From the NCBI GenBank assembly GCA_902630465.1, contig CACOVJ010000004.1:1-64000 (forward strand): 64,000 nucleotides of DNA, given 5' to 3'. The notes under the pieces were generated by a model. The model made no database searches, was not told where the DNA came from, and worked only from the letters and a program-made list of their open reading frames with translations. The stretch is from an uncultured Alphaproteobacteria bacterium. GTDB taxonomy: Bacteria; Pseudomonadota; Alphaproteobacteria; HIMB59; GCA-002718135. Shown here piece after piece: positions 39,243 through 60,170 of this stretch. The translations under genes and the position numbers were made by a program. How positions within the stretch are numbered: position 1 is the stretch's first letter; the number at the start of each line of letters is the position of its first letter.

Positions 39243-39573
39243 TAAAAATAGCTGTTTTTATTATAAAAAAAGTTAATAATATCATTAAAAAATACGAAGT
39301 TAAGTTAATTCCCCATTTACTTAAATTATAAATTTTTTTCGATGTGACATAATCATCTATTATTGTTTGAAGGCCTAATTTTGCGTGCAATAGCATGGCT
39401 ATCATCATTACATAAAATAAAAGTGAGTTTAAATAGGATTGAAAAAAGCTAATTGTTTCATCATACTCCATTTTAGAAAGTGAAATTGCAGAATATATGA
39501 ACCAAAAAGTTAGTGGTATGAGTAATGATGCTGTAATTCTTTGGATCACCCATTTTAAAGCATAATTTTTCAT
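39235..39573 (-). CDS. sdhD: succinate dehydrogenase membrane anchor subunit SdhD
   Basis: Small membrane subunit of complex II, 112 residues when started at 39573 ([16 protein letters not shown]), where ATGA couples it to the sdhC stop. A longer open frame to 39675 lies inside sdhC and is not credible. Three membrane helices are visible, and [14 protein letters not shown] matches the SdhD heme/quinone-side helix (His followed by a conserved DY pair). Confidence 0.92.
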
Positions 39574-39941
39574 ACTAGAAGCCAAACCGCTATAGTGGAT
39601 GAAAGTGTTAGGAACAGTACTATGTATCCAGATCGATATACAGTAGTTAAATCCATTCCAATTCCAAATGACCAATAGAGCTTTCTGCAGCCATTATAAA
39701 GGTGGTAGAAAATACCAATCGTCCAAATTAAAAGAATAAACTTAAATAAAATATTTTTTGAAATTATCTCAAAATATATAAAATAATTTGGGCCCAGACT
39801 TATAAGTAAAAACCAAATTGCAATTAGAATTGTTCCTAAACTTAGCCCAATTCCAGTTATGCGATGAAATATTGAAAAAAGGGCTGTAAGTACCTTTTTG
39901 TGTATTGATAGATGTGGTGATAATGGGCGATTATCAGTCAT
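39570..39941 (-). CDS. sdhC: succinate dehydrogenase cytochrome b556 subunit SdhC
   Basis: Membrane anchor of complex II, 123 residues with three hydrophobic helices. RPLSPHLSIHKKV and SIFHRITGIGLSLG are SdhC hallmarks; the Ser and Arg there belong to the quinone site, and a later His (YHLYNGCRKLYW) should be a heme ligand. It is the first gene of the TCA cluster. The gene-free region upstream (39942-40297) must hold its promoter and contains a candidate RNA on the other strand. Confidence 0.94.
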   Translation of the reverse strand: MTDNRPLSPHLSIHKKVLTALFSIFHRITGIGLSLGTILIAIWFLLISLGPNYFIYFEIISKNILFKFILLIWTIGIFYHLYNGCRKLYWSFGIGMDLTTVYRSGYIVLFLTLSSTIAVWLLV

Positions 39942-40150
39942 TGTATGCTTATAATTTTAATAGTTATATTTACTTAAGTATATATTTTTCCTAGAATTTC
40001 AAAAAAAAACGAGCATTTGAAATATTCTTATTTAGTAAAAGAAAATTATCTAAATTGTTAATAAAATTGATAAAACAAGGTAAAACTTAATATAAATAAT
40101 ACTAAAAAATCGCTATATTCCTTGAATTTTATACAGATTAATATTATTCT

Positions 40151-40298
40151 GAAAAAGCCGGATAATACTTAATTTCTTTGCTTCGGAGGAACGCCAAGAG
40201 ATTTTAATCATCTTACCCGCCGTTTGATGATTATATGAGTTTCTATTCTAGAGAAGTGTCTGCCAAGGTACTAACTAGTTGAGATATCCGGCTTTTTC
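40151..40298 (+). ncRNA. candidate structured non-coding RNA, class unknown
   Basis: Between sdhC and a hydrolase gene lies a 148-base segment whose ends pair perfectly over 14 bases (40151-40164 with 40285-40298). Inside are two further hairpins. Hairpin A: AATTTCTT 40171-40178 with AAGAGATT 40196-40203, plus an inner stem capped by GGAG at 185-188. Hairpin B: TAATCATC 40205-40212 with GATGATTA 40226-40233, with a C-rich loop ACCCGCC. A -10-like TATTAT (40142-40147) precedes the element and a run of five T ends it, favouring the plus strand. Size and paired ends recall 6S RNA, but I cannot match the 6S consensus. The rest of the 39942-40297 gap is A+T-rich with no ORF I would support. Confidence 0.42.
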
Positions 40299-41284
40299 TA
40301 TTTAAGATTAGAATTGAAAAATAATTCCATCTTATCAGCATATTCTTCTGGATATTTTATCATACTATCAACGTGATTTGAATCTTTGGCAAGCCAGTAT
40401 TGTGCGTTAATTCTATTTTTTGCAGTATAGTTTTTGTAGTATTCAAAATGTCTAGTTAATACTCTTGTATCATTGTCGCCATGAGTAAAAAAGTATGACT
40501 GTGTTTTAGTAAGCTTAAAAGCTGGAGATAATAAAGTAGGATCGATACCAGTTAAGATTTTCCCAGCAAAACTTACTGCTGGTCCAAATTCAATTGACAA
40601 TCCATACCTTGCTATTTCATCTGTTAGAGCCATATTGAATTCAGCTATTGGACTATCAGACCATATTGCTAAAATTTCTGGCTCCTCATATGCTGCAAAT
40701 ATAGAAGTACTAGCACCAAGAGATATTCCATGTAGCCCAATCTGATTACTCTTAAAACCAATATTTTTTAAAAAATCGAAAGCTCCTAGGATATCTTTAT
40801 AGCTTTTTAAACCTAAATCTTCATATTCAGAAGTTCTATCACTTTGTCCATAATTTCTTAAATCTATTGTTAAAACATTAAAGTTTTTACTAACTAATAG
40901 AGATGTAATTAAATTAGATTCTGATTTGCATTTACCATTAGGATTTATACCGTGTGTAACTATTATAATTGGTCTATTTGGAAAATAATTAAATAGCCAA
41001 CCATTTATTTTTATATCTTTTTCTCTTGATAAAAAATATACATCTTGCCACTCATCTAAATGATAATTTTTATATGGAAAATTTTCTCTGAGTTTTCTCT
41101 GTAAAATATCATCGTATTCGTGTGCATCAATTGATGTGCTCCAAGTATTTGGCAGTGATCCTTCGTGCATACCACAAGAAAAATCAATTTTTAAAATTTG
41201 GTAAGCTACGTAGAAACCAGCACCATAATAAATAAAAATTATGATAATAAATATACTGATTAGATATTTTAATAATTTTTTCAT
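40298..41284 (-). CDS. membrane-anchored alpha/beta hydrolase
   Basis: A 328-residue hydrolase. An N-terminal membrane helix (about residues 8-30) should anchor it in the inner membrane with the domain outside. Nucleophile elbow GISLG (Ser188), acid Asp270 or Asp272 in THGDNDTRV, and His304 in DSNHVDS make a complete triad; THGINPNGK is the oxyanion strand. It resembles YfhR/BAAT-type hydrolases, and the substrate is unknown. It is the last gene of a coupled operon and overlaps zapE by 4 bases. Its stop codon touches the end of the candidate RNA stem. Confidence 0.85.
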   Translation of the reverse strand: MKKLLKYLISIFIIIIFIYYGAGFYVAYQILKIDFSCGMHEGSLPNTWSTSIDAHEYDDILQRKLRENFPYKNYHLDEWQDVYFLSREKDIKINGWLFNYFPNRPIIIVTHGINPNGKCKSESNLITSLLVSKNFNVLTIDLRNYGQSDRTSEYEDLGLKSYKDILGAFDFLKNIGFKSNQIGLHGISLGASTSIFAAYEEPEILAIWSDSPIAEFNMALTDEIARYGLSIEFGPAVSFAGKILTGIDPTLLSPAFKLTKTQSYFFTHGDNDTRVLTRHFEYYKNYTAKNRINAQYWLAKDSNHVDSMIKYPEEYADKMELFFNSNLK

Positions 41285-59914: not shown

Positions 59915-59931
59915 ATAAACTTATAAATAAT

Positions 59932-60051
59932 ATGGATGAAAAAAAAATTGTAATAAGGTTAATTATAGTAATATTTTTTTTAGTTATTATATATTCTTTA
60001 TTAAGAGTAGGTGTTGGTCTAGACCTAAGTTTTGGACCATACGTTAAATAA
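59932..60051 (+). CDS. tiny single-pass membrane protein, 39 residues
   Basis: A short ORF in the 256-base interval between an MFS gene and dxs. It starts MDEKKIVIRL, has one strong membrane helix (about residues 8-25), and ends with GVGLDLSFGPYVK. The charged start, single helix and compact tail look like a real small membrane protein rather than chance. I do not recognise the family. It could be a stop-to-stop accident in A+T-rich DNA. Confidence 0.42.
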   Translation: MDEKKIVIRLIIVIFFLVIIYSLLRVGVGLDLSFGPYVK

Positions 60052-60140
60052 ACGCAACTAGTCAAATAAAATTAAATTTTCCACATTGTTTGTAATTTAG
60101 TTATTATTTATAAGTTCAAGAATCCATAAAGATAGTAAAG

Positions 60141-60146
60141 TATAAT
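60141..60146 (+). promoter_or_regulatory. -10 box of a probable dxs promoter
   Basis: A consensus TATAAT lies 24 bases before the dxs ATG. The best upstream match, TTCAAG (60115-60120), is 20 bases away, so the -35 is weak. Confidence 0.4.
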
Positions 60147-60170
60147 CTAAATAGTTTTAGAAGAAAAAAA

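Follow-up and report, generated by a model that had tools for sequence, protein, structure and literature searches.

A small RNA gene beside sdhC in marine Alphaproteobacteria with predicted pairing to the ftsZ ribosome-binding site

Introduction

Streamlined ocean bacteria keep few regulators, and their control of cell division is little understood. The window (the whole stretch of alphaproteobacterial DNA analysed here, 64,000 nt) contains a 148-nt element at positions 40151–40298 that had been singled out from its sequence as a candidate RNA gene. Is this element a gene, which strand would be transcribed, and what might the product do?

Results and Discussion

Genomic setting and fold

The element lies in the longest gap of the window. 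This gap (39942–40297, 356 nt) separates sdhC (39570–39941, the divergent neighbour) from a gene for an alpha/beta-hydrolase-like protein (40298–41284, the convergent neighbour), both of which are open reading frames on the minus strand. The next longest gap measures 256 nt. That second spacer (59915–60170) has a G+C content of 20% and carries a long AT-rich inverted repeat (59918–60116).

The two arms of the element, GAAAAAGCCGGATA (40151–40164) and TATCCGGCTTTTTC (40285–40298), are exact reverse complements over 14 bases, as had been claimed. The plus strand of the 148-nt element folds with an energy of -47.9 kcal/mol (z = -4.83), and none of 200 shuffles was as good. The minus-strand fold is weaker (z = -3.54), though also better than shuffles. 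Both a GGAG-capped hairpin and a hairpin with a C-rich loop, which had been described previously, are present in the fold. Two further parts were found, namely a short helix, P2 (ACUU/GAGU), that encloses both of these hairpins, and another large hairpin, the third (40248–40278).

The G+C content of the element is 38.7%, compared to 16.8% for the adjacent spacer and 30.7% for the window. In a relative (G070), which has 59 spacers of at least 143 nt, the corresponding region ranks second in G+C content among their 143-nt stretches. A GC-rich island in an AT-rich spacer is the signature that Meyer et al. used to find structured RNAs in Pelagibacter (PMC2704228). The 14-bp stem alone is not extraordinary, since the window contains perfect 14-bp inverted repeats within 200 nt at three further sites, all of them AT-rich.

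Conservation and covariation

We designate as f1 the family of AT-rich marine Alphaproteobacteria that holds the RNA (six genera), and as f2 its sister family in the same order. Family f1 probably belongs to the HIMB59/AEGEAN-169 lineage. A DNA search of 61 related genomes identified 22 same-genus homologues besides the window, located at the same place. The element scores 159 bits with a covariance model, and model R1 matched 72 of 150 genomes of the order, representing all six f1 genera and none of f2. In a class-wide sample of 289 genomes, the only matches were the window's genome and one other genome of the same genus. The RNA is present as a single copy in each of ten near-complete f1 genomes; these are all the near-complete f1 genomes, because the ten near-complete genomes without a match are f2 genomes of at least 90% completeness.

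A pattern scan with the core of the third hairpin (hairpin C) across the genomes of 84,980 species returned 73 loci, nearly all from uncultured Alphaproteobacteria, including AG-series single-cell genomes, MarineAlpha5 bins and SAG-MED31. Weak matches of model R2 in G037, G044, G154 and G169 were not accepted, as the match in G037 is antisense within an ABC transporter gene and the others score 12–14 bits. One 16-mer match on a viral contig (L171) has no model match and was also rejected.

In the alignment of 51 distinct sequences, 95.1% of the cells are paired; an earlier set of 34 sequences, which did not yet include two U-U positions of hairpin B, gave 99.0%. Nine pairs show changes on both sides, compared to 2.9 in shuffles, and none of 500 shuffles was as high. 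Most of the compensation is carried by the closing stem P1 and hairpin B, each with four such pairs, and one pair is found in hairpin A. Hairpins A and C are nearly invariant; therefore, their pairs are consistent with the model rather than proven. In one locus (L066), the model misplaces the 5′ arm, and the true arm, AAAGCCGGAT, is located about 24 nt upstream.

Taken with the family-wide homologues, the stem covariation bears out the earlier suggestion of an RNA gene under selection, and indicates more than chance. A chance fold without function, to which the inverted repeats elsewhere in the window would lend some colour, is already refuted by conservation in six genera, accompanied by compensatory changes, next to a spacer that diverges freely, and we give it practically no credence.

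Architecture of the RNA

The modelled plus-strand RNA is about 143 nt long (40154–40296), with its 5′ end predicted near 40155. In P1, the 5′ arm (40151–40164) pairs with the 3′ arm (40285–40298). The original prediction of a 14-bp stem is exact for this genome; however, only the inner seven pairs, GCCGGAT/ATCCGGC (5′ core at 40157–40163), are family-wide, and the outer A/T part is particular to the window's genome. The compensatory changes that had been proposed as a check of this stem were found at four P1 pairs across f1. The 3′ arm is followed by a T-run in this genome, and a T-run after the closing stem is found in many relatives, but not all.

Within P1, the 5′ strand of P2 (ACUU, 40167–40170) pairs with GAGU (40237–40240) and encloses hairpins A and B. 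P2 is paired in all sequences, with G-U as its sole variation. Hairpin A (40173–40201) contains the invariant core GCUUCGGAGGAACG with a GGAG tetraloop and is nearly invariant in A1–A3. Hairpin B (40206–40232) combines a covarying stem with an invariant apical loop, which includes the predicted seed CCGCCGUUU (40217–40225), whose CCGCCG is invariant in f1. Hairpin C (40248–40278) consists of CUAG...CUAG with an inner GUGUCU-GCCA-AGGUAC and is also nearly invariant. Intramolecular pairing between GGAGG of hairpin A and CCGCC of hairpin B was considered and set aside; it would contain one A-G mismatch, and both segments are invariant in f1.

Strand, promoter and neighbouring genes

The alignment contains 190 G-U cells on the plus strand versus 2 A-C cells, the form in which minus-strand G-U pairs would appear; thus, the functional strand is plus. 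A promoter-like block on this strand (40122–40148) consists of TTGAAT (40122–40127), a 15-nt spacer and ATTATT (40143–40148), the latter overlapping the previously noted TATTAT box (40142–40147). Relatives share a TTGAA box and a box of the TATTA/TGTAAT type about 30 nt ahead of the RNA, while the neighbouring spacer diverges. This block is probably the promoter of the RNA; we say no more than probable because a spacer of 15 nt is short for sigma-70 and a generic sigma-70 scan did not list the TTGAAT/ATTATT pair. Together, the G-U bias and the conserved block agree with the plus-strand transcription that had been favoured.

sdhC is syntenic in every locus that reaches that far, and, in f1 loci of sufficient extent, the hydrolase stop codon lies within 4 nt of the RNA 3′ end. 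In the window, the 3′ arm of P1 abuts this stop codon, in agreement with the original prediction. In MarineAlpha5_Bin5 (L069/L115), only an N-terminal fragment of the hydrolase remains (match to residues 21–97) and the RNA is intact. The RNA therefore does not serve the hydrolase, and the role in the 3′ end of that operon that had been suggested is not supported, given that the RNA is encoded on the strand opposite to the hydrolase gene and persists beside its truncated form.

The same observations bear on whether the element could instead be a minus-strand feature, such as a leader or terminator between the hydrolase gene and sdhC, or a cis-acting element of the sdh operon. The minus strand carries both neighbours, the spacer is the upstream region of sdhC, and the minus-strand fold also beats shuffles; however, the G-U bias, the conserved plus-strand promoter-like block, and the retention of the RNA beside a truncated hydrolase render such a feature highly improbable. 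We are nearly certain that the element is a real, conserved plus-strand RNA gene. This sRNA gene is previously undescribed and is kept beside the succinate dehydrogenase genes throughout f1.

Comparison with known RNA classes

An Rfam search gave no family match for the element, either here or in relatives, in keeping with the earlier failure to match it to 6S, SRP, tmRNA or RNase P. The 6S covariance model (RF00013) found nothing in the window at the gathering threshold or at E≤10, and nothing in 61 genomes of the order; the Caulobacter and E. coli copies used as positive controls were found. The element and 6S RNA fall in a similar size range, and in both the 5′ end is paired with the 3′ end. 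However, 6S RNA is a rod with a large central bubble that mimics an open promoter, whereas the conserved fold here is a branched multiloop with three hairpins and without such a bubble. The proposal of a highly diverged 6S RNA is thus not supported. SRP, RNase P and alpha tmRNA were also rejected, since relatives have their copies elsewhere (9/10, 10/10 and 10/10 genomes, respectively). No Hfq (PF17209) was detected in ten near-complete genomes, with a positive control.

A three-stem-junction ncRNA of Pelagibacter, located between SAR11_0635 and SAR11_0636, is thought to be separate and is of unknown function (Meyer et al., PMC2704228). Like the present RNA, it forms a GC-rich island within a streamlined, AT-rich marine genome, but it belongs to another locus and lineage. 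Kinship with the Pelagibacter motifs of Meyer et al. was rejected, as the present RNA has no Rfam match.

ftsZ as the predicted target

Conserved, mostly exposed segments of the RNA were compared with gene starts (-45 to +30) in large contigs, i.e. partial genomes, of two f1 genera (G061 and G070) that share 617 reciprocal orthologues. The hairpin B loop, CCGCCG(UUU), shows complementarity to the ribosome-binding site of ftsZ, AAACGGCGGAG, and the match overlaps the Shine-Dalgarno sequence. Among the 617 orthologues, ftsZ alone has a complement of CCGCCG at its start in both genera. By duplex energy with this loop, ftsZ comes first among 1,024 genes in the partial genome of one of these genera and among 880 in that of the other. 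Three loops were tested by energy, and ftsZ is at the top only for the loop of hairpin B.

The complementary motif ACGGCGGAG is present in all 58 f1 ftsZ leaders read, from 59 loci. It forms the only invariant columns among 48 distinct leaders, in an alignment that was anchored on the motif and therefore favours it. In several genera, the pairing between loop and site consists of six contiguous G-C pairs plus a bulge extension, and nothing more. The draft genome of the window itself gave no ftsZ match; a close relative, G015, carries both the RNA (L002) and the ftsZ site (L319).

Along the whole RNA, conserved 7–9-mer complements are not more numerous than in reversed or complemented controls. 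This count is uninformative because AT-rich words dominate it, and, since whole-RNA words do not separate from controls, the argument for the target is confined to the GC-rich apical loop. The ftsZ leader is also not outstanding in the length of its shared upstream sequence (rank 28 of 617).

Two other features of leader sequences were observed. A recurring TTGACGRTTTCG...TCGTTAA block, resembling a promoter or repressor site, lies about 30–45 nt upstream of the f1 ftsZ ribosome-binding site (L271–L329) and is not found in f2. An RppH-like NUDIX gene (G061 C1:363028–363498, and its G070 orthologue) has GAAACTC just before its start in both genera; as this is complementary to the conserved GAGUUUC of the RNA, the gene is a weak candidate for a second target.

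A counterpart in the sister family

Nothing in f2 is recognised by the f1 covariance models. The f2 ftsZ leaders have a different motif, [T/C]GCGGGG (11/11), and the f2 site before ftsZ is TTGCGGGG. When f2 loci were searched for the complement of this site, CCCCGCA was found in 8 of 8 loci; it lies upstream of sdhC and on the strand that reads divergently from this gene. It forms the apical loop of an invariant hairpin, CUCACCCCGCAUGAG, which is enclosed by an inner helix and by a closing stem that covaries. The whole structured element spans about 85–98 nt (L076:2023–2120, plus strand, and L077–L083) and has no Rfam match. The distance from the start of the element to sdhC is about 165 nt in L076, versus 193–269 nt in f1. 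TGCGGGG occurs ten times, counting both strands, in 398 kb of G037, corresponding to an expectation of about 0.006 per such spacer, a figure to be read with two 7-mers having been tried in about 14 loci. Of the 435 genes in these 398 kb, ftsZ ranks first for the f2 loop.

Matched duplexes between loops and leaders average -15.7 (f1) and -15.2 (f2) kcal/mol, compared to -11.7 and -8.0 kcal/mol, respectively, when swapped. Since the f2 loop matches the different site of f2, loop and ftsZ site changed together between the families, as read from their sequences. This concerted change is a single event; within f1, the loop core and the ftsZ site are both invariant, and the event between families is the sole co-change. 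Based on its position, orientation, architecture and matching target, and with no recognisable shared sequence, we infer that the f2 element is the counterpart of the f1 RNA. Since a gene for a TRAP-transporter small permease follows the f2 element on its own strand, this element may be a leader. Short f2 matches to the region past the f1 RNA end were discounted, as there is no hydrolase there.

The invariance of hairpins A and C raises another possibility, namely a structured housekeeping or protein-binding RNA, with a 6S-like function or as part of another RNP, in which these two hairpins do the work and the match to ftsZ is of secondary importance or incidental. The two hairpins indeed vary less than would be required of a pure antisense RNA, no 6S was found in the order, which would leave that role open, and each near-complete f1 genome has a single copy. 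Nevertheless, the RNA branches, unlike the rod of 6S, there is no 6S model score, and in f2 a match to ftsZ is found again with another sequence; we judge this explanation to be unlikely, albeit the strongest of the alternatives.

Comparison with EcpR1, DicF and DinR

EcpR1 of Sinorhizobium meliloti is a trans-acting, Hfq-independent sRNA with a conserved GC-rich loop, UCCGCCGCAUCU, that represses gcrA and dnaA; ftsZ was tested and is not regulated (PMC4414408). Both EcpR1 and the present RNA are alphaproteobacterial and have a conserved GC-rich apical loop (CCCGCCGUUU or UCCCGCCGGAU here) that is aimed, in our case by prediction, near the ribosome-binding sites of cell-cycle genes. In a comparison by eye with the published motif, CCGCCG is common to the EcpR1 and f1 loops, and UCCGCCG is found only in L062. 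EcpR1 is a 101-nt RNA of two hairpins downstream of divK-pleD (PMC4414408), whereas the present RNA is a closed, four-helix structure of 143 nt between sdhC and the hydrolase gene.

DicF of E. coli (PMC5069750) and DinR of Klebsiella (PMC10907235) are Hfq-bound and block translation of ftsZ by pairing at its ribosome-binding site, to which the present RNA is also complementary. They are unrelated to it in sequence and are processed from longer transcripts, in contrast to an apparently independent gene in genomes with no detectable Hfq. By analogy, the RNA may work like EcpR1, DicF and DinR, without membership of any of these being claimed.

That the similar loop of EcpR1 serves gcrA and dnaA, and not ftsZ (PMC4414408), would suit an sRNA that pairs through its loops with other or many mRNAs, ftsZ being at most one of several targets, as would the conserved GAAACTC of the RppH-like gene. 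Yet, in the partial genomes scanned, no second orthologue has a complement of the GC-rich loop in both genera: other shared complements number zero among the 617 orthologue starts. We consider this broader role quite doubtful.

Proposed mechanism

The reading we prefer, at a probability of roughly 70%, is a trans-acting sRNA that regulates ftsZ by pairing and blocks FtsZ translation without Hfq. The RNA of about 143 nt would be transcribed separately and fold into the closing stem, hairpin C, and an inner helix that encloses hairpins A and B, and it presumably accumulates in the cell. Hairpin B would present CCGCCG (CCGCCGUUU in the window's genus) as its apical loop, which is predicted to bind ftsZ mRNA in the cell by pairing with AAACGGCGG, overlapping the Shine-Dalgarno sequence. 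Such pairing would block ribosome binding and lower FtsZ synthesis, so that the effect on ftsZ would be repression, and would need no Hfq, none having been found. Given the match of the loop to the ftsZ ribosome-binding site, the RNA is probably a switch that tunes cell division. The invariance of hairpins A and C suggests a bound protein or a tertiary contact.

If true, this would mean RNA-based control of division in abundant marine Alphaproteobacteria, in genomes without detected Hfq or 6S RNA, and the switch of loop and site between f1 and f2 would constitute natural compensatory variants. A more ambitious version, which we offer tentatively and hold less probable than not, would be an order-wide, Hfq-independent FtsZ riboregulator whose loop and site co-evolve between families, which forms a stable ribonucleoprotein via hairpins A and C, and which ties division to the sdh/TCA locus. 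The site beside sdhCDAB invites the idea of a possible link to respiration.

The upstream region of sdhC has conserved sequences of its own. On the minus strand, conserved blocks at 39960–40075 include TTGAAA with TATACT 14 nt further on, and a conserved TTGTTAATAAAA-type box lies near 40058–40070. These blocks are probably the sdh promoter and a regulator site.
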